The notes under the pieces were generated by a model that ran no database searches, was not told where the DNA came from, and saw only the letters and a program-made list of their open reading frames with translations. The position numbers and the translations under genes are program-made. Positions 3,394 to 23,080 of a stretch of DNA of 23,100 nucleotides are shown here, one piece after another (the first letter of the stretch is position 1; the number at the start of each line of letters is the position of its first letter). The stretch is from a virus: positions 1-23,100 of IMG/VR virus record IMGVR_UViG_3300030104_004528, one strand, 5' to 3'.

Positions 3394-4160
3394 ATGTCAG
3401 AGAAAAGAGTAAAGCTTACTAACGTATTAGAAAGTCAGTTTCCCGATTATGCAAGATCGGAGTATCCTTTAGTCATTGATTTTATAAAACAGTATTATGA
3501 ATCTCAAGAGGCTCAATCAGCACCGATTGATCTGCTGAATAATATTGATCAATACATTAAATTAGACGAAAATACAAATACTTCTTATTCTGCAATTCTT
3601 GGTAGTAATATATCCATTGATGCTGATATAATTTCTATTGATATGCGTCAATCTCCTACAGGAACGATTGGATTTCCAGATACTTATGGTATTATAAAGA
3701 TTGATGATGAAATTATTACATATACTAGCAAAACAGACACTTCTTTTGAAGGTTGTGTAAGAGGATTTTGTGGTATTACATCATATAAAGATTCAACACA
3801 AGAAGATACATTAGTTTTTAATAATACATCAGCAGTAGAACATACAGGTAGTGTTTATGCAGATAATAATTCACTTACTTCTATTGGATCTACTGTACAA
3901 AACTTAAGCACTTTATTTTTAAAGGAATTTTTAAGAAAAATAAAGTATCAAGTTTTACCAGGATTAGAAGAGAGGAAATTAACACCTAATTTAGACCAAA
4001 ATACTTTTATAAAGCAATCAAAAGATTTTTATTCAACAAAGGGTACTGATCAATCATTTGAAATACTTTTTAGAGCTTTATATGATTCTGATGTAAAAAT
4101 TGTAAAACCACAAGATTTTCTTCTTACACCATCTAATGCTCAATATCAAGTTACTAAGGA
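3394..4160 (+). other. Conserved N-terminal region of the giant protein
   Basis: Residues 1-255 are distinct from the repeat-filled remainder. They are mainly helical-looking, with YPLVIDFIKQYYES, FLKEFLRKIKYQVLPG and STKGTDQSFEILFRALYDSD. A GFPDTYGIIKIDDEIITYTS unit followed by FEGCVRGFCGI (residues 93-127) interrupts them. I infer that this is the part that docks to the wedge core next to gp6 and gp25, with the repeated modules projecting outwards. Confidence 0.6.
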
Positions 4161-7100: not shown

Positions 7101-10100
7101 TGGTGTTGATCAAATTGGAAGAAAATTATATGGAGAAACTGATCTAAGAAAGGAAAATGGTCAAGAAGTTTCATCTGTTAGTCATTCTCCTATAATTGGA
7201 TGGGCTTATGATGGAAATCCAATATATGGACCATATGGTTATAGTTCAATTCAAGGTGGTGTTGTAAATCAGATGAAGTCTGGATATTCTATTTCATTGA
7301 AAGAGAATAGGCCATCAACGGATTTATTCCCTAATGGATTCTTTATTGAAGACTATACTTATACTAAAGTAAATGATGAAACAGTACTAGATGAGAACAA
7401 TGGTAGGTTCTGTGTGACCCCAGATTATCCAAATGGTACTTATGCATACTTTACAACAATTGACCCCAATGTAGTCGATTCTGCAGGGGTTTTCGCTGGA
7501 TATAGAAGACCTATTTTCCCTTATATTATAGGTGATAAATTTAATTCTATTATTAATACTTTCAACTATGAGGTAAATTCAGTTCAAAATAGTTATGATT
7601 TAGTATCTAACAAATATTATAGAAATACTGCACCTTATAATCTTATAGAGAATAATCTTAACTATCAGTATATTGATATTCCAAATAATTTAAACCAATC
7701 GGTTAAAATAAAAGCAACAACTCCAGGCAATATTCAATCTATTGGAATAGAAACTGGTGGTAGGGATTATCAAACTGTAGATAATATTGTTTTAGATGAT
7801 TCTCAAACTAAAGGTTATGGTGGTGATATTAGTATTACTAAAGTTGGTGGTAAGATTGTAAGTTCGATTAGCGTTGCTACTACTAGTATTTCTGATCTAG
7901 AAATCTATAATTCCAATGAACAAAATAAATTTGATATAGTATCATCTACTCCACATCCATTTAAGAAAGATGATACTATTACTATATCAGGATTATCCAC
8001 AAATGGATTAAAATTAGATGGTTCATATGTTGTTGGGTTATCAACTAATGTATTATCATTAGTTGGACTTGGTACAACATCAGCAGGTATTAGCTCAGTT
8101 AGTACAACTGGAATAGTTACCTTTGTTAATGTTGGTGGAGATTTATCAAATACATCTCCAAATGATATTTTATCAATCGGTTTAGAGCAAGTTAAAGTAT
8201 TAAATGTTGATAGAGAACAATCTAGACTTAGAATTTTACGTTCTGTTAATGGTATAGGTACTGCACATGCAGTAAATTCATTGTTTAGTGAAAATGATAG
8301 ACAGTTTAGTATCAAATCTAATGAAAATATAAAGGAAATAGTAAAAAGGAATAAAGAATTCTACTTTAATCCTTTAGATTCTGTAGCTCTTGGATCAACT
8401 TCTGGTGTTGGTATAGGAACTACTCTTACTTTCTCCAATCCAGGAGCAGGTGTAACACAATTATTTGTTCCTACAAAAACAATTTACATTAAAGACCATA
8501 ATTTACAAACAGGTGATTTATTAACATATTCTACAAATACTGGAACTGCTTTAAAAGTTAATAATGGTACAACTACTTTTGATCTAACAAATCAACAACA
8601 ACTATTTGTTGGAAGGGTGAGTAATGATCTAATTGGTGTATCTACAGTTCGTGTAGGGTTAGGAACTACTGCAACATTTGTAGGTATAGCCAATACCCAA
8701 AGAGGTCAATCTACATTAATGTTTGCTGGATTGGGAACAGGTGCATATCATAGTTTTAAAACCAATTATGATGCAATAACTGGAAATGCATCAAGAAATC
8801 TTGTTACAGTATCTACTTCAAGCACTCATGGATTAATTACTAATGATTTTGTCAATATTGATGTTAATCCTTCAGTAGAAGTAACCTATACAATTAAATA
8901 TGATGATTTAAATAGAAGAACTGTTATAAATCCAAGAGATTTTGCTGATGCTGATGTTGATATTAATGCAAATTCGATTGAAATATTAAATCATGGTTTT
9001 GTAACTGGTCAAAAGGTCATTCATACTGCAGCAAGTCCAGCTGGAGGACTTATTGAGGGTGGAATGTACTATGTTGTTAAAATTGGCGATAATAACATCA
9101 AGTTAGCAACATCAGATTATAATGCTAAGTTAGAAAATCCTATTGTAGTTGATATTACAGGAACAGCAACAGGTACAATTTCACCTATCAATCCTCCATT
9201 AAAATTATATAAAGATTCTACAATAACATTTAATTTAGCGGATTCTTCATTATCATTTGTTAAACAATCTACAAGATATCCTGCATTTACATTAGATTTC
9301 TATACTGATGAGAATTTTACTGATATTTGGGAAAAAAATGCTTCAGTAAAAGAATTTGCCGTTAATACCATAGGTGAAATAGGAATTACAGCAAATGCTG
9401 CAGTGACATTGAAGGTAGATAAAAATACACCTGAAAAATTATTTTATAAATTAAATCCTGTTTTTGAAAGTAGTCCTCCTTTAGAGAAAACACAAGCAAT
9501 TTGTGATTATGATGTTATATCAAATAATCAACTTGAAATTAAAACAAGTGTTTATAATGGAGAATATAAAGTATCTGTAGGAACAACTAGTACCTTTACA
9601 TATACTATAGCAGATGTTCCTGAAAGACCTTCATATTCATCTCCATCAGTAATATCATATAGAACATCATCTGCAACTGCATTTGGTCCTATTAGTGATT
9701 TACTTATCAAAAATGCTGGAAATAATTATTACACATTCCCAACTATATCTTCAATTACATCTACTTTTGGTTCTAATGCAATATTAAGTGTTGAGAGTAA
9801 AAATATTGGTCAAATCAAGAAAGGAACTATTCAAGATATTGGATTTAATTTCCCTACGGACAAAACATTACAACCAAGTGTTGGATTGCCTCAAATTATA
9901 GAAATTGATGATTTTTCTACCATTAAGTCTATTGGTATCACATCTGTTGGTAGAGGTTATACTATAGCACCATTACCAGTTATAGTTGATGGAAAAACTA
10001 ATAAGAAAGTAAACGAAGTTGAATTACATTATCAACTTGGTGATACTGATGTAACTATTATTAAAAATACATCAGGAATGAGTAATCTTCCTCCAGTTAT

Positions 10101-13100
10101 TGTTCCAACTCGAAATAGTAATGGTGTTGCTATTAGTACTGTTGGATTTAATACAATAACCAAAGATGTAACTCTTGGATTAGGAACAGTTTATAGTGAT
10201 GCTGCAGATTTCCCATTTGCTCTTGGTGATAAGGTATTAATTGAAAATGTTAGTGTTGGTGTAGGATCTACTGGTCTTGGATACAATTCTTCTGCATATG
10301 ATTACAAATTATTCAGTATAAAATCAATCACACCAACTATTGGTGGATTTGGTACTGTTTCGTATAATATGAGTGATGAGATAAGTGATAGTATAGTAAC
10401 TCCAGGTAAATTTGATAAAGTTAATTCTGATGGGCAAATAATTGCAGAAAAAACTTTCCCATTATTTAATGTTACTTTTGATAGTAAGAACTTCTTTCCT
10501 GGCGAAACTGTTACATCTAATTCATCTTCTGGTATTGTTGAAAGTTGGGATCAGAGAGTTGGTACATTAAGAGTTTCATCAAGTGATTCTTTTGTTGTTG
10601 GAGTTGCAATTCAAGGCCAATCTTCTAAAACAAGTGGAACCCCAACAAGTATTACTACATATGATGCTTTCTTGGGATATGATGCAACTTCTAGAGTTGA
10701 AAAGGGATGGCAAACTAATTCAGGAGTTATAAATGATAATCAGCAAAAAATTCAAGATAGTTTCTATTATCAGAATTTCTCATATTCATTAAAATCAAAA
10801 GTTGACTTTGATACTTGGAATAATCTTGTTTCTAGTTTGAATCATACATTAGGATTTAAAAAATTCTCTGATTATCAATTAGAATCATCTATAGGTTTGG
10901 ATAATCAAGAATTGGTAGTTGGACTTACTACTGATACAACTGCGTATGAAATTGTATCCGATTTACAGAATACTGCTGATGTTAACTGTAGATATGGTTA
11001 TGCATCTGTTAAAGAAAATGCATTATCTATTGATGGTCAATTAGCTTCTAATGAAGTTATATTTGATAGGGGTGAGTTAACTGATTACTTTGAATCATTT
11101 GGTAATAGGGTTCTTTCTATTGATGATTTACAACCATTATTTAATAGTGTACCAAGAGCAACTAAGTTTAGTGTTATCAGTACTTTCCCAATAGCTAAAT
11201 CAAGATCAATGAAATTCTTTACTTATGTAAAGGATAGAAGATATGTTGGAGAAAGACAAATGATGGTTGTGGATATTGCCCATGACACTACATTTGCTTA
11301 TGTTAACCAGTACGGTAGATTAGACACCGTATATGATATGGGAACATTTGATTTTGTTATATCAGGTTCTGAGGGACAATTATTATTCTATCCAACTAAA
11401 ACTGAGATTAATGATTTTGATGTTGCAGCTTTAACTTATAGATTGGATGATAATTTATTAGGTGTTTCTAATAAGAGTTTAGGTAGTTCAGTATTAGTTA
11501 ATTCAAGTAGCCACAAGGTTGCTGTAGGGGTCACAGAAACAGTTGTAGGGTTTGCTAGTACATATAGGTCAGCCAAGATTTTAGTGGGTGTTACGAAGGA
11601 TGCTGGTGGGGATGGAACTACTATAATTGGTAATGAATTTGAGTTTGATGAACTCAACATATGTCATGATGGTACTGATGTAAGTATTGTTGAATATCCA
11701 CAAGTTTCTACAGATTTAGATCCATTTGAAACTCCAGGATTAGGAACATATAGAGCATATATTGATGGTTCTCAAGTAAAAGTTGATTTTGCACCTGCTG
11801 TTGGTATTGGAACAACATCTATTGTTAATACCATTCAAGTTTTAATGTGTGATGATAATTCTTCTGGAGTAGGAACTGAAGATTTAAGACATGCAAGATT
11901 AGAAGGAAAAACTACTAATATTGCATCTTCTGCAACTCCTACAGAAAATGTTATTGCTAGATTTGAATCTCAAACAAATGAGGTAACTGATGAATTCGAT
12001 GCTGCATATTTTATAGTTCAAATTACTGATAAGACTACTAATCAGTATCAGATGTCTGAAGTTATGCTTGTTGATACTTATAATGAATCAATAGGTACTG
12101 GTGATGTTTATGACTTAGAGTATGGTATTGTTCGTACTAACTCTGGATTAGGAACTATTGGATCAAGACTTGATGTAAACAATGGTAGTGTTACTTACAC
12201 GGAACTAGTATTTACACCAAATCCAAATATTAATGTTCATGTTAATGTTTACATGAATGCTATTAAATTTGATAATGGCCAAAAAGATGAGATAGATTTA
12301 ACTAACTCAGCAATTCAATCAGAATATGGAACATATAAAGGAACTCATAGTGATGTTAAGAGATCCTTTGAAGTAAATCATGATAATAATCCAGTATTTG
12401 AAAAAGAATTCCTTGGTAATAGTGTTGGTGTTGTTTCAGTTACTAGTAGTACCGTTAAGATACCAAATCATTTCTTTGTTAGTGGTGAGAAAATAAACTA
12501 TAGACATGCTGGGGCTGCATCAACTCAAGCAATAGGAATTACTTCCACTAATTTTGTTGGCATAGGAACTACTGACAAGATGCCAGGTGATTTGTATGTT
12601 ATTAAAATTGATGACAATTATATTAAATTAGCAGCAAGTGCGGAAAATGCATTAAAACCTTCACCACAGTTCTTAAATATAACTCATGTGGGTATTGGTA
12701 CATCTCATAGATTTGTAGCTACAAATTCAAATTCTAAGGTACTTGTTGCTATTGATAATGCAATTCAATCCCCAGTTGTTGCATCTGCAGTTACAACTAC
12801 TCTTGCAGCTAGTGTTGATTTTACCAATGATTTACTACCGTTTACAGGGATTACTTCATTCTTTAGTGCTGATCTTATAAAGATTGGTGATGAAATAATG
12901 AAGATAGAAGGTGTTGGTATAGGAAGCACTAACTTTATTAGAGTCAAGAGACCTTGGTTAGGAACACAGAGTGTTGGTTATACGACTGGTGCTTTAGTAA
13001 CCAAAGTAACTGGTGATTATAATATTATTGGTAACAAAATTAACTTTGTAACTGCACCTCATGGAAATCTTCCAATGAGTTCTATTACCAATCCTCCTGA

Positions 13101-16100
13101 TAGTAGGGATTGGATAGGTATATCTACAAGTTCTAGTTTCCAAGGAAGATCCTTCATAAGATCGGGAGCATTAGGAGGAGTAAATGACACATATGCCAGC
13201 AATTATATTTTTGATGATATTTCTTCAGAGTTTAATTCTATTAAGCAAAACTTTACTTTAAAATCTGGTGGATCTAATATAAGCGGAATTAAAGATGATA
13301 ATGCTATCATTTTAATTAATGATGTATTCCAAGATCCTGGTGCAACAAATAATTATGTTTTAGATGAACCAGGAAGTGTAGGTGTTACTACATTAGCATT
13401 TGTTGGATCAACTCGTACTATTACGAATGATGTTGGTATTTCCTCATTCCCTAAAGGTGGAATAATTTTATCAGTTGGATCTACCAATGGTCTTGGATAT
13501 CAACCATTAGTAGCTGCTGGCGGAACTGCCGTTGTATCTACTGCAGGAACAATAAGTTCTATTTCCATAGGAAACACTGGTTCTGGTTATAGGTCAGGTG
13601 TTCAGACAGTATCTGTTGGTGTTGCTACCAATAGTGGTGCAAAATTAATTAAGATAGGAACTGCTACTGTATCTAATGGACATGTAACTGGAGTTGCAGT
13701 AACTAATCCTCATATATTCTATAAACAGAAGACAGTTAATAATGTTGTATATGACAATACTACTGGTATAACAACTGTTACTACTCGTGAGAAACATGGT
13801 TTGATTGTAGGAGATCAAGCAAAATTATCTGGTATTGCATTTACTTGCACATATTCTCCACGATTAGGAATTACAACTGCTGTTTATAATAATGTAGTTG
13901 GTATTATGACCGTTACTACTAATGGTGGTCATGGATTAGTTGTTAATAAGGATGTTATATTTACTGGATTGGCATTTACATGTGGTTTGGATAATGGTGC
14001 TACAACTCACTTCTATCCAAGAGGAGAAGATCCTACTTATAATACCTCAGTTGCTATTGTAGGGGACGGAACTAAGAGTACAGTAACAAATGCTTCATAC
14101 AACCCAACAACAGGTGTTATGACGCTTACAGTGCCTTCTCATGGTTTATCTAACGGTGATAAGGTTAAACTTGAACTCAATTCATTAACATTTACTTGTG
14201 CTAAAGATGATCATGCTACAGGACATTCATACCCAAGAGCGACTGATCCAATTGCTGGACAATGGGTAGCAATTTCTAATAAGACTACTAATACTTTTAG
14301 AATTCAAGTTCTAAGTTCAACACCATCAACCAATACAAGTGCTCATACCTTTGTTGGAGCAACTACAAATGGTATTACTCTAAATGATGGAAAGATTACA
14401 ATAGATGTTGGTTTTGGTTCTCCGAATGATCAATATGCACATACTTTTGTTTCAGCAACTGCTGGTGCTGTTAAGAGTGGTGGTAATTATCAACATCAGT
14501 TTGTAGAGGCTGTTTCTGGATGTATCAGTATAACTGGATCTACAAATACTCTAACACCAATTGCTGCTGATTATAATCCTGCTGCTGGAATTATAACATT
14601 CACATCTACAGCACATGGATTAACAACATCTGACACTGTTAGGATTTCAACTGACGGAATAGTTCTTAGATGTTCAATGGACAATTATGCATCATTGCAT
14701 TCATATCCACGTATAACCGATCCTATTCATAATACTGCAGTTAGTGTTGCTTCTACAACTGCTGATACATTTAGTCTTAATGTTGGTGCATCTCCTATTG
14801 TAAGTCATAACGTATCTGCTGCTGATTATGATGCAGTATCTGGTATCATGACTATGACAATTGGTACTCATACATTAAAGACTGGAACTAGCATCAAATT
14901 AGAGACTGAATCATTAACATTTAAGTGTGCAAAAGATGGTAATGCAACTAACCACAGATATCCAAGAAAACCTGATCCTTATTATAATGGAACTCCAGTA
15001 ACTAACGTTATTAGTGCTACGAAGTTTGAAGTTAATATTGGTATTTCTACAGTTCCATCATTCTATGTTGGATTAGGTTCTGTTCAGGGATCTATAATTG
15101 CACCAAGAGCAAAGAATAATTCTGCAAGTAAGAGTGATCCAGCTCTTGATGGTGCTGATGTAATTAATGTATTAAGTGATAATAGTTTTGAAGTTAATAC
15201 TGGTATTTCTACTTGTCCTCACTTCTATGCTAGAGGTGGTAAGGTTGATAAACCATTTGAAGTTCTTATTGATGAACCATTATCTTATAGCAACATTCCT
15301 TTAGTGTATTCATCCAATTCTGTTACGGGTGTAGGAACAAGTGCAACTGCTGATATAGTTGTTGGTCAAGGATCTAGTGTTATTTCCTTTGTTATAAGGG
15401 ATGAAGGTTATGGATATGGTGTTAATGAAATACTTACTGTTCCTATTGGTGGCCCACTTGGTATTCCAACAACTTCTGCATATGAAGAATTCCAATTAAC
15501 AATACAAGAGGAAGTTACTGATAAATTTACTGGTTGGTCTATTGGAATGCTCCAATCTTTGGACAGACTTGATTCATTATTTGATAATGAGAAAAAGGTA
15601 TTTACTATGACCCTTAGTGGTGAACCACTTGCTATTAAAGCACAAGAAGGATCACCTATTAACGTTCAAGATACACTTTTAGTATTTGTTAATGATATTC
15701 TACAAGTTCCTGGTCAAGGTTACATATTTGAAGGTGGTAGTATTATCACATTTACAGAAGCACCTAAAGAAGGTGATACATGTAAGATTATTTTCTATAA
15801 AGGAAGTGGTGATGCTGATGTTGTCTTCAGGGATGTTATTGATACGGTAAAACCTGGTGATAATGTAGATATTGGTTATGATCCTGAACTTGGACAAAAA
15901 CATTGGCAAGATGAAGATAAGAGGATTGTAACTAAAATCAATTCCATCGATAATGCAGGAACCAATATTTACTATGGTCCAGGTAATACTAATGATGAAA
16001 ATCTATTGAGACCAGTTGATTGGTGTAAGCAAACTGAAGATACTGTTATTAACCAAAAGAGAGTATCTAAAGCTAGAGAACTTTATGAACCAGTAATTCA

Positions 16101-17142
16101 ACCTACTGCATATATGATCAAGAGTGCTGGTATTGGTTCTACATCAATCTATGTTGATACTATTCGACCATTCTTCAATCCTGTTAATGAAACTTCTGGT
16201 AGCAAAACTTTCCAAGATAAAGTTACCATTACTTCTCAAAATGCAAAAGTAGGTTCAACTGCTACTGCAAGTGTTGATTCTTCAGGAATTGTTGATGCAA
16301 TTACCGTTACAAATGCTGGTGTAGGATATACGGGAGTTCCTCTTGTTACTATTCAAAGTTCAACTGGAACACAAGCTACAGCAACTGCATTAGTATCTGC
16401 AGGGATTGTTACTGGTATTACTATTACAAATTCTGGAACAGAATACTCAGAAACCACTCCACCAATTATCTTAATTGAACCACCAACTCTTATTACTGAA
16501 ACTAACAATGTAAGTTCTTATCATGGTGATAATGGTGTTATTGTTGGATTTGGTACAACTACAATTGGTACTGAAAATAAGATGATTTTTGACTTCCATA
16601 TACCATCAGATTCTTATTTAAGAGATACTTCTGTTGCAGGAACTGCTACTACTTTAAGTAATATAGCAGTTGGTGATATCTTCAGTATATTTGATAGTAA
16701 TGTAGGTGTTGGTCAAACTGTAACAACTTATGATGATTCTGGAAATATACTTGGTATAACAACAGTATTCTCAGATTCAATTTACAGAGCAGATACAGTA
16801 ACTAATGAAACAGTCACAATAGTTGGTTTAGGAACAACTGTTGTTAAGAGAGTAATGGCAAAAATTAGTGGAATTTCTACTGTTAATTGGGACTCTAGTG
16901 CAGGTGATGATAAATTTGATTCTACTATATTCACCTTTGATAATACTGCAGAAACAGTTAGTTACACTGGTATAATTACCTCTGGTTTATTCTTTGGAAA
17001 TTATACTTGGGGTAGGATTGATTTACACTCAAGATCTGCAGACAATTACTTTGATGCATATGGTCGTAACGGCTATGTGGGTATTAAAACTTCTACTGTT
17101 ATTCAAAGAACAAGCAGATTGAGATTCCAAGATTATACTTAA
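3394..17142 (+). CDS. Giant 4582-aa baseplate/virion structural protein in the gp7 position
   Basis: This single uninterrupted frame encodes a protein of roughly half a megadalton. The N-terminal 250 residues carry a YPLVIDFIKQYYES block (about 25-38), then LFLKEFLRKIKYQVLPG (174-190) and FYSTKGTDQSFEILFRALYD (212-231). I recall this pattern from the first part of large structural proteins of marine T4-like phages. The rest is a mosaic of repeated beta-rich modules. It has GFP...IDDEIITYT units, about a dozen GxGY units, and HGL/TGD...YYV units. There is a YHYH-like domain (about 1200-1370), three tandem beta-sandwich units (about 2585-2965), four CxxD...HxYPRxxDP units (about 3510-3870) and two INDVFQDPG-type units. 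The C-terminus contains GNYTWGRIDL. No signal peptide or transmembrane segment is evident. In T4 the gene after gp6 is gp7 (1032 aa), the wedge scaffold, so I infer a positional counterpart with large additions. Sequence alone does not prove homology to gp7. Confidence 0.9.
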   Translation: MSEKRVKLTNVLESQFPDYARSEYPLVIDFIKQYYESQEAQSAPIDLLNNIDQYIKLDENTNTSYSAILGSNISIDADIISIDMRQSPTGTIGFPDTYGIIKIDDEIITYTSKTDTSFEGCVRGFCGITSYKDSTQEDTLVFNNTSAVEHTGSVYADNNSLTSIGSTVQNLSTLFLKEFLRKIKYQVLPGLEERKLTPNLDQNTFIKQSKDFYSTKGTDQSFEILFRALYDSDVKIVKPQDFLLTPSNAQYQVTKDLVVEPIEGNPSDLINSTLFQKTTSGEDQGYSPIASVEEVYSGVGQTYYKLSLDGGYNKDIRVDGSIYGKFTVQPTTKAIGNVAVGATCITVDSTIGFPESGDLYVSYGSTVGIVSYTSKSDNQFYNVTGLVGVVTDTYSVGIATYAFGTSSVDGSDIKVRIGSVLSDFEFESTSFEYSVNDIAKIKTLGISDTSDKAENWFYNIAPVYNVNKLTLIDSAEPRTYQVDFNVDHYFDIGDSASLIGNDGVALISAVTKIKNEKSIIIRREGFIDTTKLFTLRKNILNVNTTNFPNANKFISNIQNLYKNDSDLIVASPSIPSYDSQALEVTDRSVTFSGTFSGTTFEITPDRDHGFYSGDPVYYTPEKITTSSYNAITGQTDTSDVTNLFLPKEGLYFIKRIDSNNVKFAYSRSDIHNDIFINFTNAVTVNNQRIEPYTFKGKTLESQKLYRKLSDPTNDGIKTPTPSGFTGILINGVEVLNYKSNDFCYYGQLENINVITNGDEYDVINPPDLLIEDAVGTGATGKVSLSGSLREIKITDPGFDYIEPPIVSITGGNGEGALASVSLKSIQHFAEFNSENSVDVGIGTTVSTLHFPSAHKFRNIEKVTYNPQAQTAISGLSTNSVYYARVIDTQTVKLHHSEADALVGIGTVTLLALGEGTQRLVSYNPKNIIESINVVNGGRNYQNKEKVANPTGISTFLNCINIENHHYETGEIVKYVSMGSSVGGLTSGSEYYISKKDDNSFYLSEVGIGTDNKDYYYRTNQYVDITSVGVGTHTFNYPDIAVNITGKTGVSLASYQAKAEPIFKGGITSVQVTSNGSQYGSSEVLNFNRQPIINLSRGSGAQLKPIISQGKLVEVIVLATGSGYKGLPNIAINGIGQGAFLTPVLDNGEVKSIKVIEPGNGYIEADTTVTVESTGAGALFESKIQSWRVNLFHKQGGSEGISNIPLDDGYLTNPLNPKSGLQYSHIYTPRKLRESVFGVDQIGRKLYGETDLRKENGQEVSSVSHSPIIGWAYDGNPIYGPYGYSSIQGGVVNQMKSGYSISLKENRPSTDLFPNGFFIEDYTYTKVNDETVLDENNGRFCVTPDYPNGTYAYFTTIDPNVVDSAGVFAGYRRPIFPYIIGDKFNSIINTFNYEVNSVQNSYDLVSNKYYRNTAPYNLIENNLNYQYIDIPNNLNQSVKIKATTPGNIQSIGIETGGRDYQTVDNIVLDDSQTKGYGGDISITKVGGKIVSSISVATTSISDLEIYNSNEQNKFDIVSSTPHPFKKDDTITISGLSTNGLKLDGSYVVGLSTNVLSLVGLGTTSAGISSVSTTGIVTFVNVGGDLSNTSPNDILSIGLEQVKVLNVDREQSRLRILRSVNGIGTAHAVNSLFSENDRQFSIKSNENIKEIVKRNKEFYFNPLDSVALGSTSGVGIGTTLTFSNPGAGVTQLFVPTKTIYIKDHNLQTGDLLTYSTNTGTALKVNNGTTTFDLTNQQQLFVGRVSNDLIGVSTVRVGLGTTATFVGIANTQRGQSTLMFAGLGTGAYHSFKTNYDAITGNASRNLVTVSTSSTHGLITNDFVNIDVNPSVEVTYTIKYDDLNRRTVINPRDFADADVDINANSIEILNHGFVTGQKVIHTAASPAGGLIEGGMYYVVKIGDNNIKLATSDYNAKLENPIVVDITGTATGTISPINPPLKLYKDSTITFNLADSSLSFVKQSTRYPAFTLDFYTDENFTDIWEKNASVKEFAVNTIGEIGITANAAVTLKVDKNTPEKLFYKLNPVFESSPPLEKTQAICDYDVISNNQLEIKTSVYNGEYKVSVGTTSTFTYTIADVPERPSYSSPSVISYRTSSATAFGPISDLLIKNAGNNYYTFPTISSITSTFGSNAILSVESKNIGQIKKGTIQDIGFNFPTDKTLQPSVGLPQIIEIDDFSTIKSIGITSVGRGYTIAPLPVIVDGKTNKKVNEVELHYQLGDTDVTIIKNTSGMSNLPPVIVPTRNSNGVAISTVGFNTITKDVTLGLGTVYSDAADFPFALGDKVLIENVSVGVGSTGLGYNSSAYDYKLFSIKSITPTIGGFGTVSYNMSDEISDSIVTPGKFDKVNSDGQIIAEKTFPLFNVTFDSKNFFPGETVTSNSSSGIVESWDQRVGTLRVSSSDSFVVGVAIQGQSSKTSGTPTSITTYDAFLGYDATSRVEKGWQTNSGVINDNQQKIQDSFYYQNFSYSLKSKVDFDTWNNLVSSLNHTLGFKKFSDYQLESSIGLDNQELVVGLTTDTTAYEIVSDLQNTADVNCRYGYASVKENALSIDGQLASNEVIFDRGELTDYFESFGNRVLSIDDLQPLFNSVPRATKFSVISTFPIAKSRSMKFFTYVKDRRYVGERQMMVVDIAHDTTFAYVNQYGRLDTVYDMGTFDFVISGSEGQLLFYPTKTEINDFDVAALTYRLDDNLLGVSNKSLGSSVLVNSSSHKVAVGVTETVVGFASTYRSAKILVGVTKDAGGDGTTIIGNEFEFDELNICHDGTDVSIVEYPQVSTDLDPFETPGLGTYRAYIDGSQVKVDFAPAVGIGTTSIVNTIQVLMCDDNSSGVGTEDLRHARLEGKTTNIASSATPTENVIARFESQTNEVTDEFDAAYFIVQITDKTTNQYQMSEVMLVDTYNESIGTGDVYDLEYGIVRTNSGLGTIGSRLDVNNGSVTYTELVFTPNPNINVHVNVYMNAIKFDNGQKDEIDLTNSAIQSEYGTYKGTHSDVKRSFEVNHDNNPVFEKEFLGNSVGVVSVTSSTVKIPNHFFVSGEKINYRHAGAASTQAIGITSTNFVGIGTTDKMPGDLYVIKIDDNYIKLAASAENALKPSPQFLNITHVGIGTSHRFVATNSNSKVLVAIDNAIQSPVVASAVTTTLAASVDFTNDLLPFTGITSFFSADLIKIGDEIMKIEGVGIGSTNFIRVKRPWLGTQSVGYTTGALVTKVTGDYNIIGNKINFVTAPHGNLPMSSITNPPDSRDWIGISTSSSFQGRSFIRSGALGGVNDTYASNYIFDDISSEFNSIKQNFTLKSGGSNISGIKDDNAIILINDVFQDPGATNNYVLDEPGSVGVTTLAFVGSTRTITNDVGISSFPKGGIILSVGSTNGLGYQPLVAAGGTAVVSTAGTISSISIGNTGSGYRSGVQTVSVGVATNSGAKLIKIGTATVSNGHVTGVAVTNPHIFYKQKTVNNVVYDNTTGITTVTTREKHGLIVGDQAKLSGIAFTCTYSPRLGITTAVYNNVVGIMTVTTNGGHGLVVNKDVIFTGLAFTCGLDNGATTHFYPRGEDPTYNTSVAIVGDGTKSTVTNASYNPTTGVMTLTVPSHGLSNGDKVKLELNSLTFTCAKDDHATGHSYPRATDPIAGQWVAISNKTTNTFRIQVLSSTPSTNTSAHTFVGATTNGITLNDGKITIDVGFGSPNDQYAHTFVSATAGAVKSGGNYQHQFVEAVSGCISITGSTNTLTPIAADYNPAAGIITFTSTAHGLTTSDTVRISTDGIVLRCSMDNYASLHSYPRITDPIHNTAVSVASTTADTFSLNVGASPIVSHNVSAADYDAVSGIMTMTIGTHTLKTGTSIKLETESLTFKCAKDGNATNHRYPRKPDPYYNGTPVTNVISATKFEVNIGISTVPSFYVGLGSVQGSIIAPRAKNNSASKSDPALDGADVINVLSDNSFEVNTGISTCPHFYARGGKVDKPFEVLIDEPLSYSNIPLVYSSNSVTGVGTSATADIVVGQGSSVISFVIRDEGYGYGVNEILTVPIGGPLGIPTTSAYEEFQLTIQEEVTDKFTGWSIGMLQSLDRLDSLFDNEKKVFTMTLSGEPLAIKAQEGSPINVQDTLLVFVNDILQVPGQGYIFEGGSIITFTEAPKEGDTCKIIFYKGSGDADVVFRDVIDTVKPGDNVDIGYDPELGQKHWQDEDKRIVTKINSIDNAGTNIYYGPGNTNDENLLRPVDWCKQTEDTVINQKRVSKARELYEPVIQPTAYMIKSAGIGSTSIYVDTIRPFFNPVNETSGSKTFQDKVTITSQNAKVGSTATASVDSSGIVDAITVTNAGVGYTGVPLVTIQSSTGTQATATALVSAGIVTGITITNSGTEYSETTPPIILIEPPTLITETNNVSSYHGDNGVIVGFGTTTIGTENKMIFDFHIPSDSYLRDTSVAGTATTLSNIAVGDIFSIFDSNVGVGQTVTTYDDSGNILGITTVFSDSIYRADTVTNETVTIVGLGTTVVKRVMAKISGISTVNWDSSAGDDKFDSTIFTFDNTAETVSYTGIITSGLFFGNYTWGRIDLHSRSADNYFDAYGRNGYVGIKTSTVIQRTSRLRFQDYT
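6990..7500 (+). other. YHYH-like domain inside the giant protein
   Basis: Residues about 1200-1370 contain HSPIIGWAYDGNPIYGPYGY (1264-1283), then FFIEDYTYT, LDENNGRFCVTPDYPNGTYA and YF (about 1332-1353). This order matches the YHYH protein family pattern of a G-x-A-x-D-G-x-P-I-Y-G-P block followed by LDE-NGR and a NGTYHY-type end. Here the eponymous YHYH is YAYF, so the second histidine position is lost. The family's biochemical role is unclear to me; as a phage virion module it may bind carbohydrate or metal, which is speculation. Confidence 0.65.
11146..12285 (+). repeat. Three tandem beta-sandwich-like modules in the giant protein
   Basis: Three consecutive units of about 105-120 residues cover roughly residues 2585-2690, 2705-2820 and 2850-2965. 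Each follows the same plan. It starts with a strand such as MKFFTYVKD, SAKILVGVTKD or AAYFIVQITD. An exchange motif follows (ERQMMVVDIAHD, FDELNICHDGTDV, MSEVMLVDTYNES), then NQYGRLDT, VEYPQVST or LEYGIVRT, and a closing strand rich in FTP or FYP. The C-terminus of the 578-aa fibre protein (residues about 498-578) has a fourth version. Divergence between copies is high, so the duplication is old or the copies were acquired separately. Confidence 0.6.
13771..15250 (+). repeat. Tandem CxxD...HxYPRxxDP modules in the giant protein
   Basis: Four units share the pattern HGL-like turn, about 14-20 residues, then C-x2-D-x2-A-[ST]-x-H-x-YPR-x2-DP. The YPR tyrosines are at residues 3541, 3613, 3771 and 3856. 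A shortened copy (FTCTYSPRL, about 3483-3491) precedes them, and a decayed copy (APRAKNNSASKSDP) follows. Each is led by a (V)GIMTVT or GVMTLT strand. The units differ in spacing (72, 158 and 85 residues), so the array contains insertions. Conserved Cys, Asp and His in each unit hint at a shared structural or metal site. Confidence 0.7.
15571..15827 (+). other. VNDILQVPG module in the C-terminal part of the giant protein
   Basis: Residues about 4060-4145 read as a compact beta domain: KKVFTMTLSG, a linker, then TLLVFVNDILQVPGQGYIFE, SIITFTEAPKEGD and CKIIFYKGSG. A related but more divergent copy is at residues about 3279-3326 (NSIKQNFTLKSGG ... AIILINDVFQDPG). I recall the same LLVFVNDILQ-type strand from other marine myovirus structural proteins. 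It is followed by a conserved-looking stretch with RPVDWCKQ and PTAYMI. Confidence 0.55.
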
Positions 17143-17177: not shown

Positions 17178-18914
17178 ATGGCTAAACAAGGCATTACTAC
17201 TGGAACAACACCGAACGACGGTACTGGAGATACCTTGTTAGCTGGTGCTGTTAAAATTAACAGTAACTTTGATGAACTTTATGATTATTTTGGTAATGGA
17301 AATGTTTTAAATTTCACTTCTGCGGTTTGGCCACAGAATGACACTGGTATTCATACCACAAGAAACGTAGGTATTGGAACCACAACAGCAACTGAAAAAC
17401 TTACGGTAGATGGTAATATAAGTCTTCCTGATGATAAATCTGCATATTATGGATCAAGTAATGATTTTGAGATTACACATAATACTTCACTTGGAAATGA
17501 AATAAGTAATTTTAACAATAATGCTCTTTATATTAATGATGGAAATGTAGTTAATACATGGTTCAAAGTTGATTCATCTGGTGCTGTATTTTCACCTGCA
17601 GGTATTACTTCAGTTGGAGCTGCGGTTACTTTCAAAGGCACTGATGGAAGTGTTTTAGCAAGAAATTTAAAAATAACTGGAGTTACTACTTCTGGCAGTT
17701 TTGTTGCAGGATCTAATATAACTGCAGGTGGTGCAATTACGGGTGTTGGATCTATTACTGGTGCTACTATTCATGGTAGTGGTGCTGCTTTATCAAATAT
17801 TGTTACCTCAGTTACTGCTGGTGCTGGACTTACTATTAGTGGTTCAACTGGGACTATAACTATAAGTTCTGCATCTGGTGGAGCACAAGGATATTTTCAA
17901 AAGAATGTTACTGGTATAAACACAACATCAAATGTTGGAGTTGGAACAACCACATCAACAAGTGCTTTAACGGTTACTGGAGATGGTAAATTTACTGGTA
18001 TTGTGACGGCTACTACTTTTATTGGTAACGTTACTGGTAATCTTACAGGAACAGCAAGTACAGCAGGTGCAGCAACTACTGCTTATAGTTTAATTGGTAC
18101 TGCATCTACAGCAACTGCTGCTGCAACTGCTTATGGATTAAGTGGTACTCCCAATATCAGTGTTGCGGTTGTATCTGCCTCATCTACTATAACTGCTGCT
18201 AAATTTGTAGGAGATGGAGCAGGACTTACAGGTGTAACGGCATCTGGTACTGGAATTGTTATTAAGGATGCTGGAAGTCTAGTTGGTACTGCAGGAACAA
18301 TTGATTTTGGTGATAGTTTATCGGTTAGTGCTATTTCTGGTGCTGCTGTTACTGTAACAGGAACTACTCCTAATAACTTAACTCCTGCCACAATGGTGGT
18401 TTCTGGTGTTACGACTGCAACTGGTGGAGTAATTGGTGATCTTACTGGTAATGTTACTGGTAATGTTTCAGGAACTTCTGGTGGATTGACTGGTACTCCA
18501 AATATTACTGTTGGGTTTGCTAATGGTACAGGTGTTTCTGTTTCAGGTGTTACTAGTACAACTACTTTAGAAGTTAATTCTAGATATGGTGTTTCGACAG
18601 GATTTGGAACCTTTATTGCATCTGCTGGTATAGCACATACGGTAGATACTTTCACTATAGCATCTAATAATTTCAAAACTGCTGAGTATACATTACATCT
18701 TGAAGAAACTACAAATAGTCAGACAGAAAAAGTTCTTGTAATGCAAAATGGCACTACTGCATTCTCAAATGAATATGCAGTGATGTACAATGGCAATCTT
18801 TTAGTTTCGATTGGTGCAACAATTACTGGTGGAGCAGTTCTATTAGAGGTTACTCCAAGAGCTGGAATTAGTGGACTGACCACATATAGATTCACTAGGG
18901 AGACGATGAAGTAA
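17178..18914 (+). CDS. Tail fibre / baseplate appendage protein, 578 aa
   Basis: The N-terminus (GITTGTTPNDGTGDTLLAGA, then VKINSNFDELY, residues 5-35) matches the NDGTGD...KIN.NF.E.Y motif of virion-attachment ends of T4-like fibre and baseplate proteins. The middle is a low-complexity Gly/Ser/Thr/Ala/Val beta-repeat region typical of trimeric fibres, with NVGIGTTTATEKLTVDG (63-79), a second NVGVGTTT unit (252-259) and GNVTGNLTG-type repeats (283-291, 424-432). Residues about 498-578 form a compact domain (AEYTLHLEE, EKVLVMQNGTTA, EYAV, LLEVTPRAG) related to three modules in the giant protein. The position after the gp7 slot suggests a gp9/gp10/gp11-like appendage, but no clear T4 orthologue is visible. 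A weak AGAG precedes the ATG. The gene ends exactly where the protease begins, so the two are probably coupled. Confidence 0.85.
   Translation: MAKQGITTGTTPNDGTGDTLLAGAVKINSNFDELYDYFGNGNVLNFTSAVWPQNDTGIHTTRNVGIGTTTATEKLTVDGNISLPDDKSAYYGSSNDFEITHNTSLGNEISNFNNNALYINDGNVVNTWFKVDSSGAVFSPAGITSVGAAVTFKGTDGSVLARNLKITGVTTSGSFVAGSNITAGGAITGVGSITGATIHGSGAALSNIVTSVTAGAGLTISGSTGTITISSASGGAQGYFQKNVTGINTTSNVGVGTTTSTSALTVTGDGKFTGIVTATTFIGNVTGNLTGTASTAGAATTAYSLIGTASTATAAATAYGLSGTPNISVAVVSASSTITAAKFVGDGAGLTGVTASGTGIVIKDAGSLVGTAGTIDFGDSLSVSAISGAAVTVTGTTPNNLTPATMVVSGVTTATGGVIGDLTGNVTGNVSGTSGGLTGTPNITVGFANGTGVSVSGVTSTTTLEVNSRYGVSTGFGTFIASAGIAHTVDTFTIASNNFKTAEYTLHLEETTNSQTEKVLVMQNGTTAFSNEYAVMYNGNLLVSIGATITGGAVLLEVTPRAGISGLTTYRFTRETMK
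17322..17957 (+). repeat. Internal duplication in the fibre protein
   Basis: Residues 49-70 (AVWPQNDTGIHTTRNVGIGT onward) and 238-259 (GYFQKNVTGINTTSNVGVGT onward) are two copies of one unit, each followed by a LTVxG strand. The pattern aromatic-xQNxTGIxTTxNVGxGTTT is shared. It marks the start of successive beta-repeat blocks in the shaft. Confidence 0.6.
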
Positions 18915-20960
18915 ATGGATTTTGCGGATTATAAGGATACTCTTCCTAAAGAGCCTTCATCTGGTAAGAAGGCTTACTCTGTTGGTTGTGCAAATGCTGC
19001 AGATTGGCAATTTATTGATAATTTACTAAAACAAAGCGGTACTTCTGAAACTAATGTTCCTGATGATGCTGTCACAGTAACTGACGAAAAAGTACATAGT
19101 CAAACTAGAGCAGTATACGAATTAACTGATGCAGAAGCAGTTGATCTTAGAAATCATGCTAAAGTTTCATATGTAACTATTGATGTTACCAGATATGCAG
19201 GTACGTATAAACCAGATCCTATTGAAATATTAGATGCTGTAAAAAACTACAGATATGATTCTACTGTAAAAAATTATAGAAATATAAATCCTGACTTACC
19301 TGCATCTCCAGATTCTTCTGATAAAAATAGGGCTGGATATCAATTATTAAGACTTAACACCAAAGAAGATCCTTGGGAATATTCAACAATTAATGATGCT
19401 TTAAATAATAGACTTCAATATTATGGTGATGGATCAGATGTTGATGTTGTAGTTGCTGATACTAGAGCATGGTTTGGTCATATTGAATTTCAAGGTAATT
19501 TGGGTGGTCCTGAAAAGTATAGAGGTACTAATGCATTAAAAGCTGGATATTCACAATATACAACTACTGGTTCTTGTGATGTTTTAGATCTAGTATTAGA
19601 TGCTCCTTATTATATTGATCCTGATTGGTTTAATGCAAATCCTGGTAGTAGATTAACATTACGTTGGGATGGTACTAGGGTTCCTGTAGAATCTGTAGCA
19701 AGACTATGGTGGTCTAATTCTTCTCAAAGATCTGCTGCATTTTCTAGTATAGGAACAGTTAGTACGATTACTACAAGTTATACAAGAGCAAATTGTAATG
19801 GATCTAATACTAATGACCCTGCAGGTACATCATCCGATTACCATGCAACACCATGTATGTCACAAACATATGGAAGACAATACGGTTGGGCTTTTAATTC
19901 CAATAAATGGTTTGCAAATGTAATTGGAACAAGTTCAATTGATACAGAAGAATTTTTTGATATATTAAAATTATTCCATCAGAATAAACCAACTAATTCA
20001 AAGTATGGAACTAAAGATCCAACAGTAACATCTAATAGTTGGGGTTATCGTAAATCAATTAATAGTAGTGGTTACTATTATTATCGTACAGGAACTGATG
20101 GTACAGGTGGAGTATCATATAGTACTAAACCTGCATTTATGAACAATTTTTATCAATCAGCTATTAGAGGAGAATATCAATCTAATAGTATGGTAACTGC
20201 TGGTGATGAAATGGTCGAAGCAGGTGTTATATTTGTATGCTCTGCAGGAAATACTAGACAGAAATTAGTTGAAGCTGATCACTTAGATTATGATAATTAT
20301 TGGTCTGCTAGTAATAATACTGCTTTAGCAAGTGCAACTGCGACTGTATATGGATTTGCAATGTCCAATACTATCAATCGTCAAGGTTTTCCTGGTCAAA
20401 TTGGAAAGAAAACTGAGAATGGTGTTACTAGATATCGTACAATACCAGTGGGTGCATTAGATGAAGACTATACAGGAGTTCCTAATAAAGAAAGAAGAGC
20501 AGTTTATAGTAATATGGGTAATCTTATTCGTTTTTATTCTCCAGGTAAAAATACATTAGCAGCGTCTACTAATTATGGTACTAGATATAATCGTTTTGAT
20601 TCAACATATGTTATAGATTCTACAACATCTTCAACATCTGAAGATGCTTTATTTGGTGGAACTAGTTCTGCATGTCCAACGGCTGCAGGTATAATTGCCA
20701 CGAAACTTCAATTTATGAGACATTGGACTGGGGACGATGTACTGGGTTGGATAAACAATATTGTTGGTCAACTACCAGATGCTGATATTTACTATGGTTC
20801 AGAGGATAATTCAGCAACTAGTGGGTGGACTGATTCATATTCTTTACAAGGTGGTCCAGGATCTATAATATGGGATGCTGAAACTGGTGGCGAAGATCCT
20901 ACCACAATAGAAACTAGCAATGTTTCCGTTGCTGGTAATATAACTATATCATTACAATAA
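18915..20960 (+). CDS. Subtilisin-like serine protease (family S8), probably virion-associated
   Basis: The 681-residue protein has the four S8 landmarks in order. Asp182 is in VDVVVADTRAWFGHIEF. His310 is in SSDYHATPCMSQTYG, followed by an NKWFANVI strand. The oxyanion Asn446 is in GVIFVCSAGNT, and Ser584 is in FGGTSSACPTAAGIIA. NSWG at 374-377 fits the substrate-binding strand. Residues about 18-93 resemble an I9-type propeptide, ending YELTDAEAVDLRNHAKVSYV then TIDV, which suggests a zymogen that folds and then self-cleaves. Both motif glycines after Asp and His are changed (DTG to DTR, HGT to HAT), so activity is likely but not certain. There is no signal peptide. The last 20 residues (ETSNVSVAGNITISLQ) look like fibre strands and may tether it to the virion. 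Its start overlaps no gene; AGGGAG 12 bases upstream may serve as a distant Shine-Dalgarno. It is unrelated to T4 gp21, the prohead protease. Target unknown. Confidence 0.9.
   Translation: MDFADYKDTLPKEPSSGKKAYSVGCANAADWQFIDNLLKQSGTSETNVPDDAVTVTDEKVHSQTRAVYELTDAEAVDLRNHAKVSYVTIDVTRYAGTYKPDPIEILDAVKNYRYDSTVKNYRNINPDLPASPDSSDKNRAGYQLLRLNTKEDPWEYSTINDALNNRLQYYGDGSDVDVVVADTRAWFGHIEFQGNLGGPEKYRGTNALKAGYSQYTTTGSCDVLDLVLDAPYYIDPDWFNANPGSRLTLRWDGTRVPVESVARLWWSNSSQRSAAFSSIGTVSTITTSYTRANCNGSNTNDPAGTSSDYHATPCMSQTYGRQYGWAFNSNKWFANVIGTSSIDTEEFFDILKLFHQNKPTNSKYGTKDPTVTSNSWGYRKSINSSGYYYYRTGTDGTGGVSYSTKPAFMNNFYQSAIRGEYQSNSMVTAGDEMVEAGVIFVCSAGNTRQKLVEADHLDYDNYWSASNNTALASATATVYGFAMSNTINRQGFPGQIGKKTENGVTRYRTIPVGALDEDYTGVPNKERRAVYSNMGNLIRFYSPGKNTLAASTNYGTRYNRFDSTYVIDSTTSSTSEDALFGGTSSACPTAAGIIATKLQFMRHWTGDDVLGWINNIVGQLPDADIYYGSEDNSATSGWTDSYSLQGGPGSIIWDAETGGEDPTTIETSNVSVAGNITISLQ
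18966..19193 (+). other. I9-like propeptide region of the protease
   Basis: Residues about 18-93 start with a strand (KKAYSVGCA), then a helix (DWQFIDNLLKQS), a variable loop, and VYELTDAEAVDLRNHAKVSY with VTID. The last part follows the subtilisin propeptide pattern of LTxEEAxxLRxHPxVxxVEx. In S8 proteases this domain chaperones folding and inhibits the enzyme until cleaved. The roughly 75 residues between it and the catalytic core are a Pro/Asp/Asn-rich linker where cleavage could occur. Confidence 0.65.
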
Positions 20961-20963
20961 ATA
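20956..20963 (+). promoter_or_regulatory. Candidate late promoter before the cupredoxin gene
   Basis: AATAAATA overlaps the protease stop codon and ends 17 bases before the ATG at 20981. It matches the NATAAATA late-promoter core exactly and has the overlap-with-stop arrangement seen also before gp25. Confidence 0.5.
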
Positions 20964-20980
20964 CCTAAAAACAACGAACA

Positions 20981-21493
20981 ATGGCAGATAAAAGCTTTGG
21001 CGTAAACGAGTTAAATGTAATCAGCAACAGTGCTAGTGCTGCTGGCATAGTTTCTTGTACCAACAGTATGACAGTCAATGCTGCTCAAGTTGGTGTCACT
21101 ACTAATGTAAGTGTTACTGGAGTTACTACTTCTGGTAGTTTCCATAGTAACGATACAACAGGCGATGGAACTGATGTTGGATTTGCTATTAAATATAATA
21201 TTACTGCAGACGGTTCATCTAATTATCGTTTTGCTGGACCTGGTGTATTAAATACAACTAATGATCCAACTCTTTACTTACAAAGAGGATTTACCTATAT
21301 CTTTAATAATACATCGGGTGGCCATCCGTTTAGGATTCAATTTCAAGGAACATCAATAGGTGTTGGTACATATGTAAGTGGATCTCAAACGGGTGAACAG
21401 GTATTTACAATACCTCATGATGCACCTGGTACTTATGAATACCAGTGTACTTCCCATGCTTCCATGAAAGGCGATATTATTATACCTTCATAA
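20981..21493 (+). CDS. Short fibre-type virion protein with C-terminal cupredoxin domain
   Basis: Of 170 residues, the first about 60 resemble the start of marine myovirus fibre proteins (MADKSFGVNELNVISNS, then NVSVTGVTTSGSF). Residues about 66-170 form a cupredoxin-like beta barrel: DPTLYLQRGFTYIFNNTSGG, HPFRIQF, GEQVFTIPHDAPGTYEYQC and a closing GDIIIPS strand. All four type-1 copper ligands are in place: His115 (GGHPF), Cys156, His159 and Met162 (CTSHASM). The C-x2-H-x2-M spacing is that of amicyanin, shorter than in plastocyanin. There is no signal peptide, so it is not an exported electron carrier. I recall GHPFxIQ...CTxHxxM modules at the ends of other cyanophage fibre proteins, so a structural or receptor-binding use, with or without copper, is most likely. 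No Shine-Dalgarno is visible. Confidence 0.82.
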   Translation: MADKSFGVNELNVISNSASAAGIVSCTNSMTVNAAQVGVTTNVSVTGVTTSGSFHSNDTTGDGTDVGFAIKYNITADGSSNYRFAGPGVLNTTNDPTLYLQRGFTYIFNNTSGGHPFRIQFQGTSIGVGTYVSGSQTGEQVFTIPHDAPGTYEYQCTSHASMKGDIIIPS

Positions 21494-21523: not shown

Positions 21524-23080
21524 ATGTCTGCTATCATAACAGATCAAATTAGAATATTAAATGCGAAGAATTTTGTAGCAGGTATTGGTGCTACAACTAA
21601 TTCCTATTATTCTTTTATTGGTTTACCAAATCCATCAGATGTTCAGAGTGATTGGAATGAATCTCCTCCTGCACCAAAGGATAACTTTGAAGAAGAAGAT
21701 TCTTATTGGGATACTATGATTGCATTGAAGAAAATCAATGCAGCTGATGTTAGGCAGGTGGTAAGGAAAAGAATTTGGACTTCTGGTACAATTTATGATA
21801 TGTATCGGAGTGATTATAGTAGTTCTAATAGAGCAAAAATCTCTGGAGCAACTAATTTATATTCTGCATCTTATTATGTTTTGAATAGTGATTTCAGAGT
21901 ATATGAGTGTTTACAGAATGGTACTGATCCTGATAATCCAAATGGTAAACCATCTTTAGATGAACCCACTTTTACTGATCTAGAACCTCGTTCTGCAGGT
22001 AGTAGTGGTGATGGTTATATTTGGAAATATCTTTATACAATTAAACCAGCTGATATTGTAAAGTTTGAATCAACTGATTTTTTACCAGTCCCTCAAGATT
22101 GGGCAATTTCTACTGATGCATCTTCTGTTAGGAATAGTGCTGTTGATGGTTCTATTAAAATAGTAACTGTTACAGATAGAGGAACTGCAATAGGTAACAC
22201 TGCAACATCATATACTAATGTTCCTATCAAAGGAAATGGTAGTGGTGCTCAGTGTACTGTTGTTGTAAATAATGAGTATAAAATTGATTCTGTGACTGTA
22301 ACTAGTCAAGGATCAGGATATACCTATGGTTCTGTTGATTTACTTGCAGGTGGAGTTCCTACAGGAACTCAAATTCCTACTTTTGATGTTATTATTCCTC
22401 CAGAAGGTGGTCATGGTGCAGACATTTATAGGGAACTTGGTGCATTTAATGTACTTTTATATTCTCGCATTGAAAATGATAATGAAAACCCAGACTTTAT
22501 TACTGGAAACCAAATTGCAAGAGTTGGTATAGTTGAAAATCCAAAAGTAACTACTAATACATTATTAACTTCTGATAAAGCAAGTGCTGTACCAGCTTTA
22601 AGACTTACTGGTGTTGGTTATAGTTCTGCTACCTTTACTGCAGATACTTTAATTAGACAAACTATAGGAACAGGTAAAACTGCGGTTGGTAAAGTTATTA
22701 GTTATGATGCTAATACTGGAGTTTTGAAATATTGGCAAGATAAGTCACTTGCTGGATTTACTACTGTAGGTGCTGCAATTACAAACCCTACATATGGGTA
22801 TGAATTGCTTCAATTTACAAGTACTCCCTCTGGTGTTGGTAATTTAACTATCGTTCCAGACTCTGGAACAAACTCGAATTTAGGTATTGATACTGTGTTT
22901 AGCGGTATTTCGACTGTAATAAATAATAGGACATATAACCTTGGGCAATCTTTCGTGAGTGGGATTGCTGGTCCTGAGGCTAAGAAGTATTCAGGAAACA
23001 TTATATATGTCGATAACCGTCCATCAATAACTAGGTCGGTGAATCAAAAAGAAGATATCAAGATCATTTTGCAGTTCTAA
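21524..23080 (+). CDS. 8: gp8-like baseplate wedge subunit
   Basis: The N-terminal half matches the gp8 proteins of T4-like marine phages as I recall them. Landmarks are the start MSAIITDQIRILNAKNFV, SYYSFIGLPNP (about residues 28-38), YWDTMIALKKI, RQVVRKRIWTSGTIYDMYRS (about 77-96), YYVLNSDFRVYECLQNG (about 116-132), DEPTFTDLEP and GDGYIWKYLYTIKPADIVKF (about 161-181). gp8 is a dimer in each T4 wedge and links the gp6-gp7 core to the peripheral gp10. At 518 residues it is well above T4 gp8 (334 aa). The extra length follows residue about 215 and includes a GSGY module (VTVTSQGSGYTYGSVDLLAG, about 258-277) of the same type as in the giant protein. There is no Shine-Dalgarno; late-promoter-like elements lie just upstream. 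Confidence 0.9.
   Translation: MSAIITDQIRILNAKNFVAGIGATTNSYYSFIGLPNPSDVQSDWNESPPAPKDNFEEEDSYWDTMIALKKINAADVRQVVRKRIWTSGTIYDMYRSDYSSSNRAKISGATNLYSASYYVLNSDFRVYECLQNGTDPDNPNGKPSLDEPTFTDLEPRSAGSSGDGYIWKYLYTIKPADIVKFESTDFLPVPQDWAISTDASSVRNSAVDGSIKIVTVTDRGTAIGNTATSYTNVPIKGNGSGAQCTVVVNNEYKIDSVTVTSQGSGYTYGSVDLLAGGVPTGTQIPTFDVIIPPEGGHGADIYRELGAFNVLLYSRIENDNENPDFITGNQIARVGIVENPKVTTNTLLTSDKASAVPALRLTGVGYSSATFTADTLIRQTIGTGKTAVGKVISYDANTGVLKYWQDKSLAGFTTVGAAITNPTYGYELLQFTSTPSGVGNLTIVPDSGTNSNLGIDTVFSGISTVINNRTYNLGQSFVSGIAGPEAKKYSGNIIYVDNRPSITRSVNQKEDIKIILQF

Follow-up and report, generated by a model that had tools for sequence, protein, structure and literature searches.

The phage protease described here resembles proteinase K-like enzymes (PF00082, MEROPS S8), e.g. 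aqualysin I (PDB 4dzt), a keratinase (5wsl) and proteinase K (2prk), with which it has in common the D-H-N-S order of the catalytic residues, the predicted fold (Z about 31) and a putative I9-like prodomain. Unlike them, it has 128 instead of about 30 residues between Asp and His, no obvious signal peptide, a C-terminal tail and a phage fibre context. Members of a homologous cyanophage family are annotated in public records as 'subtilisin-like serine protease' or peptidase S8 (S-WAM2, S-H38, S-SCSM2R, S-SSM7 T4-GC292, phrog_9158), i.e. the family as such is already known. Where checked, these genes lie among fibre or virion genes elsewhere in the genome, whereas the module analysed here is located between gp7 and gp8. 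An S8 peptidase, T4-GC518, is also mentioned for P-HM1 and P-HM2 (PMC3037559). The two mentions of 'subtilisin' that turned up in papers on marine phages refer to the name of a tail sheath domain. Our literature search found no paper on the protease as a fibre component, on a connector-protease-fibre syntax or on filled and unsplit sites.

In T4, the long-tail-fibre connector gp9 (1qex) is followed by gp10, and the claim of an initial reading of the sequence alone (the sequence-only reading) that T4 has no such protease gene at the corresponding place was borne out. The ORF upstream of our protease shares with T4 gp9 the gp9/10 N-terminus and the C-terminal fold, but it has a long repeat region between these two domains and is followed by the protease and a cupredoxin-tipped protein. 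The T4 prohead protease gp21 is likewise a phage-encoded protease serving virion biology, but its fold is unrelated to that of subtilases and its gene belongs to the head cluster.

The window, i.e. the whole stretch of 23,100 nucleotides that was analysed (positions 1 to 23,100 of IMG/VR record IMGVR_UViG_3300030104_004528), comes from a marine cyanophage. The sequence-only reading had placed the protease between a 'gp7 slot' and gp8 in a late structural baseplate region; the region stands, as gp6, gp25 and gp8 are confirmed (Pfam, PHROG), but the protease lies after gp7 and not in its slot, since the 4582-aa ORF, whose counterpart by position in S-SM2 is annotated as gp7, is itself gp7 and a gp9-type connector ORF lies in between. 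Three ORFs are thus found between gp7 and gp8, the connector, the protease and an F/cupredoxin-like ORF, and the features are as follows:

3394..17142, plus strand: gp7 baseplate wedge initiator, 4582 aa (phrog_2885, aa 1-4578; synteny with S-SM2 and Bellamy)
17178..18914, plus strand: upstream partner ORF of 578 aa, a gp9-type connector of baseplate and fibre (PF07880 T4_gp9_10_N, aa 3-59, E 5e-8)
18579..18911, plus strand: 'Y' domain, the last ~111 aa of the connector (predicted fold as in the C-terminal domain of T4 gp9)
18915..20960, plus strand: S8 (subtilisin/proteinase-K-like) protease gene, 681 aa, ATG start
18969..19184, plus strand: putative I9-like prodomain, aa ~19-90 (predicted beta-alpha-beta-beta-alpha-beta unit, AF2 DSSP)
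19245..20894, plus strand: catalytic domain, aa 111-660 (Pfam, alignment, fold match, aqualysin I alignment)
19458-19460, 19842-19844, 20250-20252 and 20664-20666, plus strand: codons of D182, H310, N446 and S584
20901..20957, plus strand: C-terminal tail, aa 663-681 (hydrophobic-x-G-x-hydrophobic pattern, G674)
20981..21493, plus strand: downstream partner ORF, 170 aa, N-terminal 'F' domain and C-terminal cupredoxin-like domain
20981..21130, plus strand: 'F' domain (MADKSFGV... type), extent approximate
18579..21130, plus strand: inserted module of Y domain, protease and F domain, judged against the single connector ORF of AG-345-O18, extent approximate
21524..23080, plus strand: gp8 baseplate wedge (PF09215, phrog_438)

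The protease ORF directly abuts the stop codon of the preceding ORF (TAA/ATG). Its assignment to the S8 family, first made from motifs, is confirmed by a match of PF00082 (Peptidase_S8) to aa 176-614 well above the Pfam cutoff (E 1.6e-11, 44.5 bits versus 21.8), by the proteinase-K-type fold match described below and by the invariance of D182, H310, N446 and S584, all of which had been numbered correctly. The four residues are unchanged in about 76 homologues with readable columns and with identities down to about 30% (alignment of the window sequence with IMG/VR homologues, columns counted where present), likewise in a 35-sequence alignment and, by eye, in the distant forms from P-SSM2, S-SCSM1, S-WAM2 and S-RSM4. 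As they are invariant in every distinct readable homologue, chance can be excluded as source of the S8 motifs. The residues after the catalytic D and H vary freely (DTR, DES, DQD, DDG; HGT, HAT, HST), so that DTR and HAT, which had been suspected to tune or abolish activity, are ordinary family variation, and an inactive protease on these grounds is ruled out. phrog_9158, whose function is listed as unknown, matches aa 17-666 (E 6e-90; PHROG). dN/dS is about 0.3 relative to two close relatives (dN 0.075/dS 0.261; dN 0.106/dS 0.327), indicating purifying selection on the protease that is weaker than that on gp8. The ORF starts with MDFADYKDT, and as no signal peptide is obvious by eye we do not expect the host to export the protein. 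A scan of genome contigs for bacterial relatives gave just 12 weak matches, which with few exceptions covered the C-terminal catalytic part alone, so that no candidate donor emerged.

The AlphaFold2 model of the protease (pLDDT 88, pTM 0.81) bears out the subtilisin alpha/beta fold: aa 111-663 superpose on proteinase K-type subtilases with Z 31.2 over 276 residues (2.4 Å, 24% identity). The triad was placed by profile, as the family profile aligns D182, H310, N446 and S584 with the corresponding four residues in aqualysin I, whereas phmmer with the single protease sequence gave nothing useful against the PDB. Aa 19-90 are best read as an I9-like prodomain; PF05922 (Inhibitor_I9) matches 7 of 18 N-termini of the family (best E 4.7e-4), although not that of the window, and the C-terminal half of the N-terminal profile aligns weakly with the subtilisin prosegments 3bgo_P, 1spb_P and 1scj_B (E 0.1-0.4). 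A short stretch of low confidence in the model, residues 104-106, falls at the expected start of the mature enzyme, given that residue 111 aligns with the first residue of solved mature forms. For the final 19 residues the monomer model shows no structure (pLDDT below 50), but their pattern is conserved (G674 in 87% of the family), which suggests that the tail is a putative partner-binding element.

The partners of the protease were analysed likewise. The Y domain of the connector is modelled with a pLDDT of 94.7 and superposes on aa 169-283 of T4 gp9 (1qex) with Z 13.1 (1.9 Å, 104 residues), a likeness that concerns the predicted fold and not binding. The downstream ORF gives weak matches to PF13473/PF00127 and matches positions 259-409 of phrog_677. 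In its cupredoxin-like domain H, C, H and M appear to be placed as in a type 1 copper site, with a C-x2-H-x2-M spacing that differs from plastocyanin, and a similar domain is found inside the S8 domain of AG-345-F15. The frequency of a late-promoter-like motif (CTAAATAA) found before the connector and gp8 is not above chance. Prodomain, conserved tail, gp9-type partner, cupredoxin-domain partner and the comparison with the empty site all go beyond the sequence-only reading.

Among 98 protease ORFs with a length of 500 aa or more, Y lies just upstream in 70 and F just downstream in 68, with both present in 62, figures that are lowered by contigs ending nearby. The F domain is present in 60 of 75 downstream ORFs, the protease immediately precedes it in all 17 F-bearing phage records, and protease ORFs without Y and F fall largely into one clade. 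In many relatives the reading frames of protease and connector overlap. In some contigs (L006, L007, L010, L016, L077) the unit is repeated two or three times, the middle ORFs starting with F and ending with Y; one of these contigs (L010:7317-18858) carries three protease paralogues with their fibre partners, the catalytic residues of all three being intact. In most phages the protease sits away from gp7-gp8, among fibre genes, e.g. in the tail-fibre cluster of S-SCSM1, where about 46 kb of the circular record separate it from gp7. Judged by its genomic positions, it travels with fibre genes rather than with gp7.

The closely related locus of AG-345-O18 (gp8 93% identical) contains a single 512-aa ORF between gp7 and gp8 and no protease. 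Phrog_677 (baseplate wedge tail fiber connector) covers this ORF over its full length, its N-terminus matching the connector of the window and its C-terminus the third ORF; with one unsplit connector in AG-345-O18, the window looks like the version filled by module insertion. The survey of gp8 loci that had been proposed found the protease between gp7 and gp8 in few cases: in 56 of the 64 loci with gp7 in view gp7 directly abuts gp8 without protease, three have the single unsplit ORF and two the Y-connector plus protease, while L136 combines a connector with a different S8 form. In S-SM2 and Bellamy a 12-kb gp7 gene immediately precedes gp8. At this site the protease thus behaves as a variable module, and as it is rare here and present at other sites, insertion would be the more probable direction than loss.

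As to a place in the virion, S-SCSM1 ORF 228, which combines an S8 domain with two Laminin_G_3 lectin-type stretches, is tagged 'virion protein' in its record, as are its Y and F neighbours, ORFs 227 and 229; this homologue is distant from the protease of the window (about 24-28% identity). Mass spectrometry identified 45 proteins in the S-SCSM1 virion, and according to its authors some members of the virion fraction may have co-purified (PMC9602691); we counted 48 virion tags in the record, so that the tag set nearly, but not exactly, matches the published list. In S-TIM54 (L088:11998-18420) the S8 domain is part of a protein of 2140 aa with a virion structural annotation; its other parts are an I9-like segment, an inserted BD-FAE/carboxylesterase-like domain, several Ig domains and one that is cupredoxin-like. 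The protease goes unmentioned in the main texts of the proteome papers on S-CREM1 and S-CREM2. By analogy with the data of others on one homologue, the tagged S-SCSM1 protein, the protease of the window is plausibly virion-borne, and the earlier proposal of a virion enzyme acting at adsorption gains plausibility from this phage.

The analysis shows the gene, its intact and conserved active-site residues, its fold, the prodomain signature, the cassette and the filled versus unsplit site; that the prodomain is removed, that the enzyme docks on the gp9-type connector and that its substrate lies on the surface, as well as the timing, we infer. The protease would be made as a zymogen, in which the I9-like prodomain precedes a proteinase-K-like catalytic domain, much enlarged between Asp and His, and the conserved C-terminal tail, together with the upstream gp9-type connector and the downstream short cupredoxin-tipped fibre protein. 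It would then join the baseplate-attached fibre apparatus, where its tail probably docks it to the connector or close by, and may be active outside the cell, where a host surface protein would be cleaved at adsorption. We give an even chance to this reading, i.e. to a functional S8 protease of a mobile fibre module that is carried on the baseplate-attached fibre apparatus and cleaves host surface protein as the phage adsorbs.

The main rival is a fibre-maturation enzyme that cuts the neighbouring Y-domain connector and F-domain fibre protein during assembly and is then retained in the particle or lost, which we regard as possible, though rather unlikely. The Y-protease-F gene layout is equally compatible with such a processing role, the pairing with Y and F is one-to-one even in tandem arrays (L006, L007, L010, L016), and S8 divergence correlates with that of the partners (r 0.67 for Y, 0 of 5000 permutations; r 0.48, i.e. 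lower, for F), the correlation with Y suiting the adsorption reading as well. However, linkage alone explains this correlation, so that no contact is needed, and Y/F junctions also exist without protease (S-SCSM1 ORFs 229/230), which argues that it is not required for these joints, while the extra lectin, Ig and esterase-like domains of some homologues point outward. Processing of the giant neighbour, which had been suggested earlier and would now mean gp7, or of another baseplate wedge protein is very improbable: the genes are near each other in the window, but synteny disfavours the idea, since gp7 directly precedes gp8 in so many loci lacking the protease, which in phages is mostly found elsewhere among fibre genes.

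A subtilase fold recruited as a structural fibre joint after loss of activity would suit a gene that mostly sits between fibre parts and has unusual DTR and HAT motifs, but conservation of the catalytic residues disfavours inactivation; with these residues invariant at ~30% identity, tandem paralogues included, and the prodomain kept, we consider a pseudoenzyme quite improbable. Cyanophages carry many metabolic genes, and together with the lack of an obvious signal peptide this could speak for an enzyme digesting host proteins inside the infected cell or for an effector injected with the DNA. The late structural position, a layout suited to co-expression with fibre genes and the virion tag in S-SCSM1 stand against it, making this option improbable. 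If, as in the adsorption reading, the protease is virion-borne, the family would represent phage particles carrying a proteinase-K-type protease at the fibre connector, a likely role could be offered for phrog_9158, and the passage of T4-like cyanophages through the picocyanobacterial protein coat as well as the modular exchange of fibre parts would become testable.

We further speculate that gp9-type C-terminal domain, subtilase and F form a recurrent and mobile module that enters cyanophage fibre connector genes and splits them into socket, protease and plug, sometimes serially, so that fibres would be built from segments in series, linked by joints that hold a protease. We deem this wider scheme unlikely; if true, the protease at the fibre joint could, once the host is contacted, release a segment or set off the baseplate.

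Elsewhere in the window, ORF 224-898 matches phrog_3704, labelled ferredoxin (E 6e-115), without an Fe-S domain being found by Pfam, and gp7 contains a YHYH domain at aa 1259-1361 (PF14240, E 6e-23). Outside the cyanophages, a BFVD match identified a 1251-aa protein with S8 fold (A0A2L0UZX3) in the Agrobacterium jumbo phage Atu_ph07.
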